A DNA stretch of 64,000 bases from Pseudarthrobacter naphthalenicus (lineage in GTDB: Bacteria; Actinomycetota; Actinomycetes; Actinomycetales; Micrococcaceae). Of the stretch, positions 5,068 to 49,611 are shown piece after piece. Position numbers and translations under genes: made by a program. Below the pieces are notes generated by a model, which searched no databases, was not told the origin of the DNA, and saw only the letters and a list, made by a program, of their open reading frames with translations. Each line of letters begins with the position of its first letter. The stretch's first letter is position 1. The stretch lies in contig NZ_JARESG010000002.1 in NCBI RefSeq assembly GCF_029076445.1, forward strand, positions 124,001 through 188,000, in the 5' to 3' direction.

Positions 5068-6480
5068 TCAGGCCACGTTGTTCTCATAGTCGAGGTCGCG
5101 GGTTTCCTTGCTGACGAACAGCGCGAAGAGCGTCAGCACGGACATCACGGTGAGGTAGACGCCCACCAGCACGGGGCTGCCCTTGGCCAGTTCCCACAGC
5201 CAGACGGCGATGAACGGCGCCACGGCAGCACCAAGGATGCTTGAGACGTTATAGCTGATGGCCGAGCCCGTGTACCGCACGTTGGTGGGGAACAGTTCCG
5301 GCAGGATCGCCCCCATGGGCCCGAAGGTGAGGCCCATCAGGGAGAAGCCCAGGATCAGCAGGGCCATGGTGCCCACAAAGCCGCCGCTGAACAGCGGGAC
5401 CCACAGCAGCCCGAAGACAAAGATGCCGGCAGTCACTGACAGCAGCATCTTGCGGCGGCCGTACTTTTCGGCGAGCGGCCCTGACACCAGGGTGAAGATG
5501 CCGAAGAACACGACGCCGGCAATCAGCATCCAGAGGAAGTCGTTGCGGGAGTAGCCGAGGCCGGGAACGAACGCGGCGGCTGCTGCCTCGGTCATCGGCT
5601 TGCCGGCCTTCTCGGCTGCGGCCTTGGCGGAATCCAGGGTGGCGGCGCGCGTGCCGTAGGTCAGGGTGAAGGTGGTCATCAGGTAGAAGAGCACGTAGGT
5701 GGCGAGCATGATGAAGGTGCCCAGGATCAGCGGACGCCAGCTGGTCTTGAAGACGCGGGCCAGGGGCAGCTTGGCCACCTCTTTGGATTCGAGCACCTTG
5801 GTGAAGGCCGGGGTCTCGATCAGTTTGAGGCGGACCCAGAGGCCGATGATGACCATCACGGCGCTGAGCAGGAACGGCACCCGCCAGCCCCAGTCCATGA
5901 AGGCCTGCGGAGACAGGGTGTAGCTGGCAACCAGGAAGATCACATTCGCAATGATGAAGCCGATGGGTGCACCCAGCTGCGGGAACGTGCCGTAAATGGC
6001 GCGCTTGTTGGCGGGTGCGTTCTCGGTGGCCAGCAGCGCAGCGCCGCTCCACTCGCCGCCGAGGGCGAGGCCCTGGAAGAACCGCATCACAACCAGGAGG
6101 GCCGGAGCCCAGAATTCCCAGCCGTCCACCTTGGCCGTGGGCAGGCAGCCGATCAGGAAGGTGGCGATGCCCATGGTCAGCAGCGAGGCCACCAGGGTGC
6201 CCTTGCGGCCGAACTTGTCACCGAAGTGGCCAAACACAATGGACCCCAGCGGACGGGCCACGAACGCCACACCGAATACCGCGAAGGAGCTCAGGAGCTG
6301 GGTGGTCTCGTTCTGGTTGGGGAAGAACAGTGCCGGGAACACCAGCACGGCGGCGGTGGCGTAGACGTAGAAGTCGTAGAACTCCACGGTGGTGCCGATC
6401 AGGCTGGCCACGATCACGCGCCCGCGCGAATTCACAGCCTTGGCCGAGCCTGGCTCCGCGGTGGTTGGGTTGGATGACAT
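5068..6480 (-). CDS. MFS transporter, metabolite:H+ symporter (MHS) family
   Basis: This 470-residue protein has twelve predicted membrane segments. MHS-family hallmarks near the N-terminus are GTTVEFYDFYVYATAA, then ARPLGSIVFGHFGDKFGRK and GLALGGEWSGAALLATENAP. Such carriers import organic acids, betaines or shikimate with protons; the exact substrate is not readable. The loop between the halves is long and Ala/Lys-rich (about residues 285-305). It is transcribed away from the nitrate transporter gene, with 270 bases of shared upstream sequence. Its stop faces the amidotransferase gene. Confidence 0.9.
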   Translation of the reverse strand: MSSNPTTAEPGSAKAVNSRGRVIVASLIGTTVEFYDFYVYATAAVLVFPALFFPNQNETTQLLSSFAVFGVAFVARPLGSIVFGHFGDKFGRKGTLVASLLTMGIATFLIGCLPTAKVDGWEFWAPALLVVMRFFQGLALGGEWSGAALLATENAPANKRAIYGTFPQLGAPIGFIIANVIFLVASYTLSPQAFMDWGWRVPFLLSAVMVIIGLWVRLKLIETPAFTKVLESKEVAKLPLARVFKTSWRPLILGTFIMLATYVLFYLMTTFTLTYGTRAATLDSAKAAAEKAGKPMTEAAAAAFVPGLGYSRNDFLWMLIAGVVFFGIFTLVSGPLAEKYGRRKMLLSVTAGIFVFGLLWVPLFSGGFVGTMALLILGFSLMGLTFGPMGAILPELFPTNVRYTGSAISYNVSSILGAAVAPFIAVWLWELAKGSPVLVGVYLTVMSVLTLFALFVSKETRDLDYENNVA

Positions 6481-6664
6481 TTGAACACCTTCACAAAAAA
6501 CGGCCTGACGTGGTGCGGCCAGGCCTGCAGTAGTTAGAGTTCAATATTAGTTCCCGCAGTCCATTGAATGGACAAGCATTCCAACATATGGACATGTGGG
6601 CTTCGTCTCACCTGCTGGTCCCCGTTCCCGCCTCACACCTCTTTGCGGAGGCGGATAGGCAAAT

Positions 6665-6702
6665 GTCACAGCGCGTTAACACCGCACGACCGTCCGCGAA
6701 AT
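6665..6702 (+). promoter_or_regulatory. Candidate GlnR-type box upstream of the nitrate transporter
   Basis: Within the 270-base gap between the divergent MHS and nitrate transporter genes, the sequence reads GTCAC-n6-TTAAC-n6-CGACC-n6-GAAAT. The spacing equals the 11-base period of actinobacterial GlnR boxes (GTnAC-n6-GAAAC repeated). The first half-site is perfect, the fourth has one mismatch, and the two middle ones are weak. It lies 49-86 bases upstream of the GTG start. It is much weaker than the box upstream of nirB. The rest of the gap shows no gene; an earlier in-frame ATG at 6568 would put this box inside the coding sequence. Confidence 0.4.
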
Positions 6703-6750
6703 GCGCCGTCCTTAGCGTGGAAGAACAACATTCCCCAAGGAGGCACGCCC

Positions 6751-8151
6751 GTGACTGCTGACCGCACCGCAGATATCCCCACTACCCGCACCGCAGCCGC
6801 CCCGGCTCTGGAATTCCTTCCCGGCCGCTGGATCGCCAACTGGGACGCAGAAAACAAAGAGCAGTGGGAGGCCACCGGACGCACCATTGCCCGGCGCAAC
6901 CTGAACTGGTCCATCTTTGCCGAGTTCCTCGGTTTTGTGGTCTGGCAGCTCTGGTCCATCGTGGTGGTCCAACTTCCGGCAGCAGGCTTCACCTTCACCA
7001 CGTCGGAAATCTTCTGGCTGATCTCGATGCCCAGCCTCGTCGGGGCCACGCTCCGGATCCCCTATACGTTTATGGTTCCCCGCTTCGGCGGACGCAACTG
7101 GACCATCGTGTCCGCCCTGCTGCTCCTGATCCCCGCCATCGGCCTGGGACTCTGCGTCGCCAACCCGGGGACCCCGTTCGGGGTGATGCTCCTGGTGGCT
7201 GCCCTGGCCGGTTTCGGCGGTGGAAACTTCGCCAGCTCCATGGCCAACATCACGTTCTTCTACCCGGCCCGTGAAAAGGGCTGGGCGCTGGGCCTGAACG
7301 CTGCCGGCGGCAACATGGGTGCCGCCGTCGCCCAGCTCGCCGTGCCCATCGTCATCACCCTGCTGGCCGCCGGGACGGTCAACCTGCCGCTGGCCGGCTG
7401 GATGTGGGTCCCGTTCATCCTCCTGGCCGCCTACGGCGCCTTCAAGTACATGAACAACCTCACCAGCGCCAAGGGTGACGTGGCCGGTTCGGTCGCCGCG
7501 CTGAAGGAACCGCACCTGTGGATCATGGCCCTGCTGTACATCGGCACCTTCGGTTCGTTCATCGGATTTGCCGGCGTCTTCCCGAAACTCATTAAGGACT
7601 ACTTCCCGGCCTTCTCCTCCATCGGCGTCGGCACCGTGGCACTCTCCCTGGCCTTCCTCGGCCCGCTGGTCGGTTCCCTGGCCCGTCCCTACGGCGGCCG
7701 GATGGCTGACCGGATGGGCGGCGCCCGGATGACCGTGTCCGCGTTCGCTTCCATGGCCGTTATTACCCTGACCATGATCTGGACCCTGCCGCTGAAGAAC
7801 TTCTGGCTCTTCCTGGTCCTGTTCCTGATGCTCTTCACCGCCAGCGGCTTCGGAAACGGCGCCACCTACCGCATGATCCCGGTCATCTTCGCCACCTCCA
7901 GCCGCGCCGCCCGGAACGGCGCCGACCCGGTGGCCACCCAGCGGCTCGCTTCGTCGGCCCTCGGGCTCATCTCGGCCATCGGCGCCTATGGCGGGTTCGT
8001 GATCCCGCAGGTGCTGAACGCCTCCAACACAGCCAGCGGCTTCTACACCCCGGCGTTCTACGGATTCGTCGGCGCCTACGTCCTGATGCTGGCTGTCTGC
8101 TGGTTCTGCTACATCCGCAACGCCAACCGAAATGCGATGGGACACGTCTAG
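6751..8151 (+). CDS. nasA: Nitrate/nitrite transporter, NarK/NasA type (MFS)
   Basis: This is a 466-residue, twelve-helix MFS carrier of the nitrate-nitrite porter family. The glycine-rich nitrate signatures are present as AGFGGGNFASSMANI and GLNAAGGNMGAA. It should import nitrate, possibly exchanging nitrite. GTG 6751 is chosen because AAGGAGG lies seven bases upstream; the open frame extends to 6568, but that part encodes an implausible leader and carries a candidate regulatory box. It precedes the nitrate reductase gene by one base, so the two are surely in one operon. Close to NarK-type carriers in name, but its context is assimilatory. Confidence 0.93.
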   Translation: MTADRTADIPTTRTAAAPALEFLPGRWIANWDAENKEQWEATGRTIARRNLNWSIFAEFLGFVVWQLWSIVVVQLPAAGFTFTTSEIFWLISMPSLVGATLRIPYTFMVPRFGGRNWTIVSALLLLIPAIGLGLCVANPGTPFGVMLLVAALAGFGGGNFASSMANITFFYPAREKGWALGLNAAGGNMGAAVAQLAVPIVITLLAAGTVNLPLAGWMWVPFILLAAYGAFKYMNNLTSAKGDVAGSVAALKEPHLWIMALLYIGTFGSFIGFAGVFPKLIKDYFPAFSSIGVGTVALSLAFLGPLVGSLARPYGGRMADRMGGARMTVSAFASMAVITLTMIWTLPLKNFWLFLVLFLMLFTASGFGNGATYRMIPVIFATSSRAARNGADPVATQRLASSALGLISAIGAYGGFVIPQVLNASNTASGFYTPAFYGFVGAYVLMLAVCWFCYIRNANRNAMGHV

Positions 8152-8152
8152 C

Positions 8153-10477
8153 ATGACCAACAGCGCCGACATGCACTGCCCTTACTGCGCCCTGCAGTGC
8201 GCCATGACGCTCACGTCACCCGTCAGCCCGGCCCCGGCTTCCGAGCCGGGACCGGGCGCGGCGCCCGTGGCCGTGCCCGTGCCCGTGGCTGTGGCCCTGC
8301 CCGTGCCCCTGCCCGCCGAGACTCCTGCGCCGGCCACCGCGGATGCCCCCCTGCTGGAGGTGGCCGGACGCGACTTCCCCACCAACCGCGGGGGCCTGTG
8401 CCGGAAGGGCTGGACCTCTGCCACGCTCCTGAACCACCCCGGACGCGTCACCGAACCGCTCCTCAAGGGCGCCGACGGCATCCACCGCCCCATCGGCTGG
8501 GACCAGGCCCTGGCACTGGTCACCACCGCGGTCAAGGACACCCAGGCACGCTACGGAAGGGACGCCGTCGGCGTTTTCGGCGGTGGCGGCCTCACCAACG
8601 AGAAGGCCTACATGCTGGGCAAGTTCGCCCGGCTGGCCCTTGGTACCTCGCGCATCGACTACAACGGCCGGTTCTGCATGTCCTCGGCAGCGGCGGCCGG
8701 TATGCGGGCATTCGGCGTTGACCGCGGACTGCCCTTCCCCCTCGCGGATCTGGACCACGCCAGCACCATCCTGATCCTGGGCTCCAACGTCGCCGAAACC
8801 ATGCCGCCGTTTGTGCAGCACCTCCAGGGCGCCCGGAATGCCGGCGGGCTGATTGTGGTGGATCCCCGCCGGTCAGCCACGGCAAAGTTCACGGCCGACG
8901 GCGGCGGCCTGCACCTGCAGCCCCTGCCGGGCACCGATCTCACCCTCCTGCTGGGCTTAGCGCACGTGATCATCCACGAAAGCCTCGCCGACCAGGACTT
9001 CATCGCGGCACGCACCACCGGCTACGACGCCGTGGTCCGCAGCGTCAACGCCTTCTGGCCCGAGCGGGTCCAGTCCCTCACCGGCGTCCCGGCGGACCTC
9101 ATCCGGGAAACTGCCCGCCGGCTCGCCGACGGCGCCCAAAAGGGCGGCAGCTACATCCTCACCGGCCGCGGCGTGGAACAGCATATTGACGGAACAGACA
9201 CCGCTACCGCCGCCATCAACCTCAGCCTCCTCCTCGGCCTGCCCGGGTCGGCACGCAGCGGCTACGGGACCCTCACCGGGCAGGGCAACGGCCAGGGCGG
9301 CCGCGAACACGGCCAGAAGGCCGACCAGCTCCCCGGCTACCGCAAGATCACCGACCCCGCGGCGCGTGCGCACGTGGCCGGGGTGTGGGGCGTGCCCGAA
9401 TCGCTGATTCCCGGCCCCGGCCTGCCCGCCGTCCAACTGCTGAAGTCGCTGGGACAGCCCGACGGCGTCCGCTGCCTTTTCGTGCATGCCTCCAACATCG
9501 CGGTGGCCTCCCCCGACGCGAACGCCGTCATCGCCGGGCTCCGGAGCCTGGACTTCCTGGTGGTGTGCGACTTCTTTAGGTCCGAGACCGCCGCCGAGGC
9601 GGACCTCATCCTGCCCGTGCTGCAGTGGGCCGAGGAAGAGGGCACGCTGACCAACCTCGAGGGACGGGTCCTGCGCCGCCGCCGGGCCATCCAGCCGCCG
9701 GCCGGGGCCCGCAGCGAGCTGTGGATCATGGCCCGGCTGGCCGAAGCCCTGGATGCCCCCTCCACCTACAGCGAGGACCCGGAAACGGTGTTCGAGGAGC
9801 TGCGGCTCGCCTCCGCCGGCGGCCTGGCGGATTACTCGGGCATCGACTACGCGATGCTGGACCGGGGTGAGGCCGCCTACTGGCCGTACTCGGCGGGCAG
9901 CACCGGCACCCCGCGGCTCTTCCTGGATGCCTTTGCGCACCCCGACGGGAAGGCGGTCATGACGCCGGTGACGCCGCGCCGACGTCGTGCGCCTGCCGGT
10001 ACCCCCAGCCGGGACAGCACAGCCCCGGCAGCCACCACCCTGACCCTCATCACCGGCCGTCTCCTGGAGCACTACCAGTCCGGCGCCCAGACCCGGCGGG
10101 TGGCAGAACTCCTGGCCGCCCGGCCGGAAGCCGCAGTCCAGATCCACCCCGCCGCCGCAGCCGCCATGGGCATCACCGAGGGCGCCTTTGTTTCCGTGGC
10201 CAACGAGCGTGGCGAAGTGATCTGCCGGGCGGAACTCAGCACCGCCATCCGCCCGGAGACGGTGTTCCTGCCGTTCCACTTCCCGGAACTCGGCAGTGCC
10301 AACCGCCTGACCGAGGCGGCCACTGATCCCGTGTCGGGGATGCCGGAATTCAAGTTCAACAAAGTCTGGGTCCGGGCTGCGGCACCCAGCGACCTTCAGC
10401 AAAGCGAACTTGAGCGAAACGAACTTCGGCGAAGCGACCGTCAGCACAGCGTTCTTCAACCAGCGGAGGCCTCATGA
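8153..10477 (+). CDS. nasC: Assimilatory nitrate reductase catalytic subunit (molybdopterin oxidoreductase)
   Basis: This 774-residue protein has the molybdopterin oxidoreductase layout: an N-terminal [4Fe-4S] motif, the Mo-bisMGD core, and a C-terminal molydopterin-dinucleotide-binding domain from about residue 630 (TLITGRLLEHYQSGAQTRR). It reduces nitrate to nitrite in the cytoplasm. The iron-sulfur ligands are Cys9, Cys12, Cys16 and Cys83; about 66 residues separate the last two, filled by a Pro/Ala/Val-rich insert (residues 22-66). The C-terminus carries five copies of a 15-base repeat. The start ATG 8153 directly precedes the MHCPYC motif; an ATG at 8132 would overlap the transporter. 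The stop overlaps the start of nasB by four bases. Confidence 0.93.
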   Translation: MTNSADMHCPYCALQCAMTLTSPVSPAPASEPGPGAAPVAVPVPVAVALPVPLPAETPAPATADAPLLEVAGRDFPTNRGGLCRKGWTSATLLNHPGRVTEPLLKGADGIHRPIGWDQALALVTTAVKDTQARYGRDAVGVFGGGGLTNEKAYMLGKFARLALGTSRIDYNGRFCMSSAAAAGMRAFGVDRGLPFPLADLDHASTILILGSNVAETMPPFVQHLQGARNAGGLIVVDPRRSATAKFTADGGGLHLQPLPGTDLTLLLGLAHVIIHESLADQDFIAARTTGYDAVVRSVNAFWPERVQSLTGVPADLIRETARRLADGAQKGGSYILTGRGVEQHIDGTDTATAAINLSLLLGLPGSARSGYGTLTGQGNGQGGREHGQKADQLPGYRKITDPAARAHVAGVWGVPESLIPGPGLPAVQLLKSLGQPDGVRCLFVHASNIAVASPDANAVIAGLRSLDFLVVCDFFRSETAAEADLILPVLQWAEEEGTLTNLEGRVLRRRRAIQPPAGARSELWIMARLAEALDAPSTYSEDPETVFEELRLASAGGLADYSGIDYAMLDRGEAAYWPYSAGSTGTPRLFLDAFAHPDGKAVMTPVTPRRRRAPAGTPSRDSTAPAATTLTLITGRLLEHYQSGAQTRRVAELLAARPEAAVQIHPAAAAAMGITEGAFVSVANERGEVICRAELSTAIRPETVFLPFHFPELGSANRLTEAATDPVSGMPEFKFNKVWVRAAAPSDLQQSELERNELRRSDRQHSVLQPAEAS
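10388..10462 (+). repeat. Five tandem 15-base repeats inside the nasC 3' end
   Basis: Five contiguous degenerate 15-base units (first AGCGACCTTCAGCAA, second AGCGAACTTGAGCGA) encode the pentapeptides SDLQQ, SELER, NELRR, SDRQH and SVLQP at the end of NasC. The units are in frame and lie after the last conserved part of the family domain. The spacing is polar/leucine and could form a short helix. Confidence 0.85.
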
Positions 10478-12030
10478 GCGAGCAGATTGTCATTGTCGGT
10501 TTCGGCCCGGTGGCAGGCCGCCTGATCGACGAACTCCTGCCCGCGGTCCGGGATGGGCACGTGCGCCTGACTGTGGTGGGCGAGGAAGCGGAGGCTGCGT
10601 ACAACCGTGTCCTCGTCGCTGACCTGGGCGTGGGGCGCACCACCGCGGATGCCCTGGCACTGTCCGATGCAGCCGCCCTGATTGCCGAGAGCGTGGACGT
10701 GCGCCTGGGCGTGCGGGTCCGCAGGGTGGACCGGGCACGCCAACAGGTGATCCTCACGGACGGCACCACCGCCCCCTACGAGCGCCTCGTCTTCGCCACA
10801 GGTTCCCGGCCCGTCATTCCGAACCTCACCGGCATCAACCCGGACCCCGCCTCCCCGGTCCTGCCGGCCGGGGTCACGGCGCTCCGGGACCTGCGCGATG
10901 CTTCGGTTTTGCGCGCAGCGGTCGACGGCGGCAAACGGGTGGTGGTGCTCGGCGGCGGCGTCCTGGGTCTTGAGACGGCCCTCGCCGCGGCGGAGGAGGG
11001 CGCCACCGTGACGGTGGTCCACAACGGCCCGCATCCGCTGGGCCGCAACATCGACCGCGGCGGGGGTGCGGTCCTCGCGGCCAGCCTGCGCCGGTGCGGC
11101 GTGCGGATGGCCGGCAACGCCCGCTCCACGGGCGTGGAGCACAACGCGCCCGACGGCGGGTTCTCGGCGCTGCTGCTTGAGGACGGTTCCGCGATCGACG
11201 GCGACCTCCTGGTCCTCTCATGCGGCGTCCGGCCGCGGACCGAGCTGGCCGAGGGCTGCGGCCTGTCCACCGGCACGGGAATCCTGGTGGACCACCGGCT
11301 CCGCGCGCACCACGAACCCCACATCTTCGCCATCGGCGACTGCGCCGAGGTGCGCTGCCCCGACCCCGCCTGCAGTGAGTGCCGCACAGCGACGGGCCCG
11401 TCCGGACTGGTGGGACCCGGCTGGCGGCAGGCCGACTGGCTGGCCGAATACCTGACCCTGCTGGCCACCGGCACGCAAGCCGACGCTGACGCACTGGTGG
11501 AACTGCCCCGGGAACAGGCCGGCGTGATTGTGCTGAAGGCCCGCGGCCTGACCATGGCCGTGGCCGGGGACAACGCGGCCGATCCGTGGGACGAGGACGC
11601 CCTGACCGCCGGCGCCGTCAACTGCCGCCCGCGCCTGCAGATCGCCCAGTGGGCAGACCCGGAGCACGGCCGCTACGTCAAGATGACCACGCGAGGCGGA
11701 GTACTCGAAGGCCTGGTGGCGGTGGGCATGCCGCGATCGGCCGCCGAACTGGTCAGCCTCTTCGAACGCGGGGCCGAGCTGCCGGCGGACAGGTCCCTGT
11801 TGCTGCGGCTGGACGGGCCGGAGCAGTTGGCTTCCGGACCTGCCGACCCCGCAGGGACGGTGTGCCGGTGCGCCGGGGTCAGCGGGACCAGGATCCAGGG
11901 CGCCGTGGAGGGCGGCTGCTCCACGGTGGCCGACGTAGCCAAGGCGACCCGCGCCGGCACCGGCTGCGGCGGTTGCCATGATGACATCAAGGGACTCATC
12001 GAACAACACTTCCAGGCAGCTCCCGCCTGA
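10474..12030 (+). CDS. nasB: Nitrate reductase electron-transfer subunit (FAD/NAD(P)H oxidoreductase with [2Fe-2S] BFD domain)
   Basis: This 518-residue flavoprotein begins with the dinucleotide fold IVIVGFGPVAGRL, has YERLVFATGS, a second NAD(P)-binding fold VVVLGGGVLGLETALAA, and the FAD-contact strand IFAIGDC. The C-terminus holds a bacterioferritin-associated-ferredoxin-like domain with CRC and CGGC cysteine pairs that bind [2Fe-2S]. It resembles the first half of NirB but lacks the siroheme domain, matching NasB of nitrate reductases. It should pass electrons from NAD(P)H to NasC. Cys290, Cys295, Cys300 and Cys303 form an additional cluster just after the FAD strand. Translationally coupled to nasC by an ATGA overlap. 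Confidence 0.9.
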   Translation: MSEQIVIVGFGPVAGRLIDELLPAVRDGHVRLTVVGEEAEAAYNRVLVADLGVGRTTADALALSDAAALIAESVDVRLGVRVRRVDRARQQVILTDGTTAPYERLVFATGSRPVIPNLTGINPDPASPVLPAGVTALRDLRDASVLRAAVDGGKRVVVLGGGVLGLETALAAAEEGATVTVVHNGPHPLGRNIDRGGGAVLAASLRRCGVRMAGNARSTGVEHNAPDGGFSALLLEDGSAIDGDLLVLSCGVRPRTELAEGCGLSTGTGILVDHRLRAHHEPHIFAIGDCAEVRCPDPACSECRTATGPSGLVGPGWRQADWLAEYLTLLATGTQADADALVELPREQAGVIVLKARGLTMAVAGDNAADPWDEDALTAGAVNCRPRLQIAQWADPEHGRYVKMTTRGGVLEGLVAVGMPRSAAELVSLFERGAELPADRSLLLRLDGPEQLASGPADPAGTVCRCAGVSGTRIQGAVEGGCSTVADVAKATRAGTGCGGCHDDIKGLIEQHFQAAPA

Positions 12031-12133
12031 GGTGCGCTGAAGACGGGGAGGCCGGATATGTGCATACCCCAACGCGGACATGGGCGCGTAACAGGAATCG
12101 TGCGTGCTGCCGCCTGCCGGTAGCATCGCGGCC

Positions 12134-12832
12134 ATGAATGCCGACGACGAAGACGACATCACCGAAGAACTGCTGGCCGACGCAGTCAAACTGACCGGGC
12201 TGAGCCTGGAACTGCTGGGCCTCGATCCCCACCCCGATGACATGACCCCGGAACAGCGGCTCCTGTTCGACCCGGAAGACCTGGCTGAAATGGCAGCTGT
12301 CCCGGCCGACGGTCGGCAAGAAGCTATGAGCCGGACCCGCCTCCTGGCCGGCCTCCTCTGGAACTCGTCGGGTATTCTCCTTGACCAACTATTTCGCGAT
12401 CTCGAGGCGCTGGGCCGGCCGGATGCCGTCACTGCGTCCGGCATCGCCAAGTCCTACGTGCTGTCCTCGCTGCCGCCGCAGTTCGCGTCCAGTTACGACG
12501 CCGGGTTCACGCGGAAGTTCATTGTCGTCGCCGCCGACGTCGCTGTCTCCCTCGGCCGCGGGTGGACCTCCCCCGGCTGCATCGCGGCCGAACTGGCCGT
12601 CCGCTGCCTGCTCGACCAGGCGGAAATCACCGAAGACATTTACGAGCTGGACCTGCCGGAGGACTGGCGCGCCCAGGTTGAGGAGGTCCTGCTGGAGGAC
12701 GCCGAATGCCACGCGCTGTACACCGAGCCGGACACAGGCGGCAGCCCGGAAGCCGACGCGGGCCTCGGCTTCGAGCAGTGGTTCACACCGTTTGCACCCG
12801 GAGACGTCGTCCCCGCCTTTGCGCGATCCTAA
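12134..12832 (+). CDS. Hypothetical acidic protein downstream of nasB
   Basis: This 232-residue protein is not one I recognise. The N-terminus is very acidic (MNADDEDDITEELL), the middle (about residues 75-150) is predicted helical, and the C-terminal third is acidic with several Trp. It has no signal peptide, membrane helix or known cofactor motif. It follows nasB by 103 bases on the same strand and converges on the HemG-like gene, whose stop is 6 bases away. ATG 12134 is chosen; an in-frame GTG at 12104 is also possible. It may belong to the nitrate operon, but nothing in the sequence proves it. Confidence 0.7.
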   Translation: MNADDEDDITEELLADAVKLTGLSLELLGLDPHPDDMTPEQRLLFDPEDLAEMAAVPADGRQEAMSRTRLLAGLLWNSSGILLDQLFRDLEALGRPDAVTASGIAKSYVLSSLPPQFASSYDAGFTRKFIVVAADVAVSLGRGWTSPGCIAAELAVRCLLDQAEITEDIYELDLPEDWRAQVEEVLLEDAECHALYTEPDTGGSPEADAGLGFEQWFTPFAPGDVVPAFARS

Positions 12833-25409: not shown

Positions 25410-25440
25410 CACAACCCGCTGTACCTGCCGTAAAGCAAAA

Positions 25441-25474
25441 GGCTGTGGCCCCGGATCAATCCGGGGCCACAGCC
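25441..25474. terminator. Perfect bidirectional stem-loop
   Basis: GGCTGTGGCCCCGGAT is followed by CA and its exact inverted copy. It lies between the small membrane protein gene (+) and the YdjM-type hydrolase gene (-). It is preceded by AAAGCAAAA and followed by ATTTAA. A very stable bidirectional terminator. Confidence 0.88.
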
Positions 25475-25488
25475 ATTTAAGCTCCCGG

Positions 25489-49409: not shown

Positions 49410-49499
49410 GTAGGTATCCTATCCCGCCGGCCCTTCCCCGCTGCCCGCTTTGTCGTGATTCCGCAGCATCCCGGGCTCACGCCTGCCCGGGTTAACGGC

Positions 49500-49536
49500 A
49501 GTGGCCGGCCCCGGGAAATTCCCGGAGCCGGCCACT
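49500..49536. terminator. Stem-loop after rpf
   Basis: AGTGGCCGGC, CCGGG, aaatt, CCCGG and GCCGGCCACT form a 16-bp hairpin with one mismatched base on each side. It lies about 75 bases after the rpf stop and upstream of ksgA. It is probably the rpf terminator. Confidence 0.72.
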
Positions 49537-49611
49537 GATGCCCTTGTAGTACAGGCCCGTGCACCTGGCGGCTGTGGTCAGCTGCCGCCGGCACAGGGCT
49601 TGGCGGGGCGT

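Follow-up and report, generated by a model that had tools for sequence, protein, structure and literature searches.

The narK-nasC-nasB locus and the cysteine spacer

The window analysed is a stretch of 64,000 nucleotides from Pseudarthrobacter naphthalenicus (contig NZ_JARESG010000002.1, positions 124,001 to 188,000), in which three adjoining genes on the + strand are considered here. The first open reading frame (6568..8151) matches the NCBIfam models of the nitrate/nitrite MFS transporter narK (NF011608, 348 bits; TIGR00886, 287 bits; both under the curated cut-offs), with the family match running from residue 89 onward, and its true start may lie further in. After a gap of 1 nt it is followed by nasC (8153..10477), identified from its reading frame, domains and fold as encoding the 774-aa catalytic subunit of an assimilatory nitrate reductase. 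The nasC stop overlaps by 4 nt (ATGA) a nasB-like gene (10474..12030) for an FAD/NAD(P) reductase with a BFD-type [2Fe-2S] domain (Pfam PF07992, PF04324). The narK match ends just 5' of nasC in all 150 best-matching loci of the genus, and the start codon at 8153 (ATG) has good support, as alignment places a Met 8 residues before the first Cys in all 150 genus homologues.

Translation of 8153-10477 confirms the preliminary description of NasC, with cysteines at 9, 12 and 16 (CPYCALQC, 8177..8200, + strand) followed by the fourth ligand at 83 (CRKGW, Cys codon 8399..8401). All four [4Fe-4S] ligands are invariant in 56 aligned sequences. The molybdopterin (PF00384, 183 bits) and dinucleotide-binding (PF01568, 108 bits) domains are present, and the first 12 PDB matches of a fold search are formate dehydrogenases and NapA, with TM scores of 0.75-0.79 by query. 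Apart from its long spacer, the enzyme looks intact, as had been described. NasC scores under the curated cut-off of NCBIfam NF047855 (680 vs 1100 bits), and the window protein is also under the cut-off of Pfam PF04879 (19 vs 22.7 bits), a shortfall attributed to the long loop; five of six scanned relatives pass, while in the sixth, L101, with a short spacer, the PF04879 match is absent. The gene name nasC, for a NasC-type assimilatory nitrate reductase, is assigned from the best profile match and the operon context. In an Arthrobacter, nas genes are induced by nitrate (PMC12010642), and the passages of that paper dealing with this induction do not mention narK.

The insert under study is the Cys16-Cys83 spacer of 66 codons (residues 17-82; 8201..8398, + strand), delimited by translation and genus comparison. 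Pro, Ala and Val make up 56% of the 66 residues and, counted by hand, 32 of the 44 at positions 22-65 (13 P, 12 A, 7 V), so that the spacer is rich in these residues, as reported earlier, although the wording "nearly all" was slightly strong. Most relatives had been credited with 25-35 residues between the last two ligands. This holds outside the genus, where the median is 28 (range 21-59) and at least 41 residues are found in 10 of 123 distinct loci, some of which are only 43-46% identical and may be other family members. It does not hold inside the genus, where the median is 49 (range 26-66) and 142 of the 150 best-matching loci have at least 41; in 43 more divergent genus loci the median is 42 (range 28-54), with at least 41 in 30. 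The 150 loci are the best-matching from 201 genomes with a match, 5 of 206 genomes having none. Further searching yielded 44 more genus loci, of which 43 were counted; the motif could not be read in L347, which is cut by a contig end. The remaining 7 of the 201 genomes gave at best a partial or weak match in this step and fall outside both sets. Genus and outside loci were divided by record name and similarity, and other taxonomies may place a few of the latter in the genus. One locus on a contig titled Vibrio cholerae (L094:3001-5095), with a NasC 69% identical and beside narK, probably reflects a contaminated assembly. On these comparisons the insert, earlier considered a possible peculiarity unless close relatives carried similar loops, is mostly a lineage trait: long Pro/Ala-rich loops occur genus-wide, varying in length and composition, which largely refutes the peculiarity.

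At 66 residues the window spacer is the longest observed, common only to its own species, the next longest being 64. This reflects the addition of a species-specific 48-nt (16-residue) insertion (8252..8299, + strand; edges ambiguous within the repeat), absent from 11 of 11 aligned close relatives. The 16 extra residues coincide with an in-frame hexamer/18-mer tandem array coding a Val-Pro/Val-Ala run (8263..8315, + strand), detected by Tandem Repeats Finder at periods 6 and 18, which bears out the repeated pattern noted before. Genus lengths and the 16 species-specific residues together indicate that a recent local expansion is stacked on an old loop present throughout the genus. Thus, the suggested recent repeat expansion accounts for about 16 species-unique residues over the hexamer array and not for the rest of the insert. 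The 11 relatives, and the 72 close pairs used below, were picked from the 150 by script or by hand. A second in-frame tandem repeat (10388-10445; 15 bp, 3.9 copies) lies in the variable C-terminal tail, before the nasB overlap. Low-complexity repeats are prone to error, but a misassembled or decaying gene is hardly credible, as a second genome of the species (G032), differing elsewhere (e.g. M/T at residue 7), carries an identical 198-nt spacer, which makes assembly error very unlikely and the insert real, the ligands and domains are intact and core dN/dS in the genus is 0.09.

In the predicted NasC structure, pLDDT is below 50 at residues 25-66 and again at 73-84, in keeping with the flexible loop proposed for the insert. 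Comparison of 72 disjoint close pairs gives a dN/dS of 0.58 for the first half of the insert (SPAxLxPAxxPGSVPVPA) and 0.64 for the second, compared with 0.09 for the core, while a length difference is seen in 41 pairs for the second half, 10 for the first and 1 for the core. dS is 0.155 in the first half vs 0.262 in the core. The best explanation is a tolerated, predicted-disordered loop present throughout the genus, the second half of which appears to be freely drifting Pro/Ala-rich filler.

An inverted repeat in the conserved half of the loop

Within the insert, the conserved segment LTPAxxPGS or LAPAxxPGP encodes a near-perfect inverted repeat, missed in the preliminary description and detected by an inverted-repeat scan and by covariation in the genus. 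In the window the stem-loop occupies 8226..8257 (+ strand, about residues 25-35), with 14-nt arms at 8226-8239 and 8244-8257 that contain one C-A mismatch and enclose a 4-nt loop at 8240-8243 (GCCCGGCCCCGGCT-TCCG-AGCCGGGACCGGGC). The typical genus stem is CTGACCCCGGCT-NNNN-AGCCGGGGTCAG, with two further pairs beyond one mismatch; usually it comprises 13-16 bp closed by a 4-nt loop and lies some 75 nt from the start of nasC. Using a hairpin score and thresholds of our own, chosen by eye, a score of at least 10 is reached in the spacer of 136/150 genus loci vs 28/1678 equal-length control windows from the same genes, and a score of at least 11 in 133/150. When the 150 nasC genes (333 kb) are scanned at the higher threshold, 133 hairpins are found at nt 60-115 and 18 elsewhere. 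Another length-variable loop of NasC (9983-10048, residues 611-632), 11-38 residues long across the genus, is without hairpin enrichment. The more divergent genus loci carry a hairpin in 21 of 43 cases, several being a shorter or different palindrome with a common 5' arm. The hairpin is therefore dispensable, being absent or weak in 14/150 and 22/43 genus loci. Operon order was rejected as a switch for its presence, as narK lies upstream in 150/150 loci with or without a hairpin. Rfam returned no covariance-model match up to E = 1 for 6000-12500, and among the matches listed in literature searches none dealt with a hairpin within nasC of Arthrobacter.

In its own genome the core palindrome occurs at one site when up to one mismatch is allowed and at 19 sites with up to two, compared with 4 in a reversed control, the nearest to nasC lying 98 kb off. 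The exact form is present in 127 of 206 genus genomes, with at most two per genome, in 103 of the 150 nasC genes, and in one of 115 genomes of the order outside the genus. The single own-genome site and the low number of exact copies rule out a dispersed mobile palindrome (REP, MITE, RPE). Rickettsia palindromic elements insert into genes, and these and REP/MITE elements resemble the nasC repeat as small palindromes in-frame in a coding gene, although the nasC palindrome is not dispersed.

Four copies outside nasC were read in the genus. A T-run follows clearly in L359 and more weakly in L357 and L358, while L360 lies in an open frame. The three copies with T stretches resemble intrinsic terminators and have the same GC-rich stem and 4-nt loop as nasC, CCCCGGCT-NNNN-AGCCGGGG, clearest in L359, whereas the nasC hairpin lacks a T-run and is located within an ORF, not at the end of a gene. 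Among intrinsic terminator features, the GC-rich stem-loop is present in nasC and no U-tract occurs after the window stem, GCGGCGCC coming next. Elsewhere in the window, strong GC-rich hairpins at 25437-25478, 49499-49537 and 1662-1696 look like ordinary terminators.

Two-fold symmetry, the almost invariant half-site CCCCGGCT-N4-AGCCGGGG and the single own-genome site at up to one mismatch would suit a DNA operator, at which a dimeric regulator of nasC binds. This reading is quite improbable. The outer pairs switch between AU, UA and CG yet remain mostly complementary, a pairing that sequence-specific recognition does not need; the exact pattern appears in only 1/115 order genomes outside the genus, and the 19 looser sites in the own genome come no closer to nasC than 98 kb.

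Base pairing and synonymous change in the stem

Covariation was scored over 15 pairs in those 109 distinct sequences whose stem occupies the standard place, leaving out the other 41 of 150. In the alignment 97.7% of cells are paired vs 91.9% after shuffling, a share raised by the selection of these 109 sequences for having the hairpin. The covariation score is 0.182 compared with 0.075 ± 0.005 in shuffles, none of 500 of which reaches 0.182, and it falls to 0.057 or less when the partner is slid by 1-3 columns. One pair, for example, is AU in 40 of the 109 sequences, UA in 37, CG in 21, GC in 2, GU in 1 and unpaired in 8. Five of the 15 pairs are invariant and so give no covariation signal, the inner pairs being nearly constant.

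Because relatedness inflates covariation counts, a tree-based recount was made by parsimony with 125 sequences on a tree built from the rest of the gene. Pair 9 changed 15 times, with 9 direct Watson-Crick moves, 4 to G-U and 2 to unpaired, and pair 11 changed 16 times, with 6, 5 and 3, respectively. At pair 13 there were 21 changes, 8 direct Watson-Crick moves, 1 to G-U and 11 to unpaired, so the outermost of these pairs is the one held least tightly. G-U intermediates exceed A-C at pair 9 (4 vs 1) and at pair 11 (5 vs 1), a weak test that leans towards pairing in the sense strand and is confounded at pair 11 by codon position, as one route is synonymous.

Synonymous changes, corrected for amino acid, occur at 0.51 of expectation in the conserved segment vs 1.08 in the adjoining filler. 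Within the stem, observed and expected numbers are 0/13.9 at Pro28, 2/15.0 at Pro32 and 0/14.0 at Gly33, while outside it Ser22 (10/10.2) and Pro23 (14/14.1) are free, indicating that nucleotides are held beyond what the residues require. Rare codons are retained, Ala29 being GCT in 102/110 sequences (5% of Ala in the core), Gly33 GGG in 107/110 (10% in the core) and Ser34 TCA in 65/110 (4% in the core). Residues 27 and 34 are combined as T-S in 61, A-P in 42, A-S in 6 and P-P in 1 of 110 sequences; the first three are the set allowed by A-U, G-C and G-U at pair 9, and P-P corresponds to an unpaired C/C. The palindrome, its conservation, covariation and codon bias, and its lack of dispersed copies, are established. 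On this evidence the conserved half of the insert has very probably been shaped by nucleotide pairing.

Low synonymous rates also have other causes, as seen at the gene junction of genomes without the hairpin and in the nasC C-terminal tail (0.67). Over the last 20 narK and first 20 nasC codons (8089..8212, + strand), a synonymous-rate count gives about 0.3-0.5 of expectation in the genus, the last 20 narK codons alone showing 0.40 and 0.35 per ten codons. The junction rate is still low in genomes that lack the hairpin (narK 0.41, nasC 0.49; 10 pairs) and was therefore not counted in favour of the hairpin. Outside the genus a low rate at nasC codons 9-21 was not seen (ratio 1.25; 17 pairs). 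The junction suppression is probably a separate constraint, perhaps translational coupling or an internal promoter. A single large conserved structure over the junction was rejected: RNAalifold pairs nasC nt 10-59, but those pairs hardly vary.

Pro-rich linkers can tether partner proteins, and this loop sits between cluster ligands, where it might dock or tether NasB at the [4Fe-4S] entry point. The NasB linker suggested earlier nevertheless finds no support and is unlikely, as dN/dS is about 0.6 in both halves (0.58 and 0.64 vs 0.09 in the core), the variable half changes length in 41 of 72 close pairs, and the loop is predicted to be disordered. Certain genus members, moreover, have a spacer of just 26-29 residues, and the conserved loop residues, the sole conserved motif, track base pairing, which explains them at the nucleotide level.

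Origin and possible role of the stem-loop

In three genus loci without a 6-residue upstream insertion (L222, L218 and L232), the palindrome reads ATGACGCTGACCCCGGC..GCCGGGGTC, the 5' arm being the old M-T-L-T-P-A coding, of which the 3' arm is the reverse complement. Different palindromes scoring at least 10 are found in the spacer of 9/123 loci outside the genus vs 31/2129 control windows (Fisher p 2e-4 if every locus is independent) and look sporadic; in L080 and L111 the palindrome again starts from the M-T-L codons or their equivalent. Template switching, in which a reverse-complement copy gives rise to a hairpin, is documented for RNA genes (PMC8794818). A template-switch origin in a tolerant loop fits, since the 3' arm copies old coding and palindromes appear sporadically outside the genus, and we infer that the palindrome arose in this way. 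The loops of L155 (GCAC) and L172 (GTGC) are reverse complements at the same stem position, a footprint expected of template switching seen in a single case. Two further hairpins were observed: L239 and L101, outside the order, have in common a different one in the spacer, GCTCGGCGGC...GCCGCCGAGC, and seven Agromyces loci (L060, L061, L063, L064, L065, L068, L109) carry a perfect 12-bp hairpin at nasC nt 202-226, just 3' of the fourth cysteine.

The same mechanism provides the serious rival explanation, a non-adaptive palindrome in which template switching made the inverted copy and keeps correcting the arms of a useless hairpin. Compensatory patterns can also be produced by template switching, which both makes and maintains paired arms. 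The sporadic occurrence of different palindromes in this same spacer outside the genus, the 5' arm made of old M-T-L(-T-P) coding in L080, L111 and the genus forms without the upstream insertion, and the documentation of the mechanism for RNA genes in that source all agree with it. It is harder to reconcile with a hairpin kept over most species examined, with a near-invariant inner stem and with fixed rare codons. The other relaxed loop, at residues 611-632, is also hairpin-poor, with 6 at nt 1700-1999 vs 133 at nt 60-115 (score at least 11, 150 genes). We consider it fairly unlikely that a mutational process alone maintains the pairing.

The nearest known systems resemble nasC in part. In the puf operon, intercistronic hairpins confer segmental mRNA stability; the nasC stem-loop likewise lies just behind the first operon gene, differing in that it is inside the next gene's codons. 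Nematomorpha mitochondrial genes (PMC6649704) contain numerous coding palindromes in conserved protein regions, with arms of up to 284 bp. They share with nasC inverted repeats within coding genes whose protein is kept functional, whereas in the bacterial gene nasC a single short stem lies in a variable linker and has been preserved over most of a genus with compensatory changes. The template-switch hairpins of PMC8794818 share with nasC a reverse-complement copy beside its source and compensatory changes, but are described for RNA genes, whereas the nasC case lies within a protein-coding gene.

For the route of origin, the action as RNA and the effect of the stem-loop, we infer the following. 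An inverted copy of the (M)-T-L-T-P-A codons would have arisen beside the original, in a spacer tolerant of insertions, to form a palindrome of 13-16 bp some 75 nt from the nasC start, and compensatory changes together with rare codons have preserved its pairing ever since. A later step in the window species would have lengthened the hexamer repeat directly 3' of the palindrome by about 48 nt. In the narK-nasC-nasB mRNA the stem-loop would form a brake just behind narK, either by pausing or attenuating transcription when ribosomes trail poorly along nasC, or by blocking 3'-to-5' decay, which would leave the narK part longer-lived than nasCB. Its position, terminator-like stem and conservation suggest that the stem-loop could quite possibly be an RNA element that tunes nasC relative to narK. 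More speculatively, the insert may be a by-product of a selected stem-loop that acts as a translation-sensitive brake, with several actinobacterial origins in this spacer. Taken as a whole, the account of a genus-wide loop, the conserved half of which is the coding trace of a stem-loop with a braking function, is given a probability of about 0.5.

The nasC insert is a clear case in which residue conservation in a disordered loop is seemingly written by nucleotide pairing, so that it would be misleading to interpret the conserved residues as a protein motif. Should the stem-loop work as proposed, it would provide a testable balance between transporter and reductase in a nitrate-assimilation operon, and hidden hairpins would be worth seeking in other "low-complexity inserts" of GC-rich bacteria.
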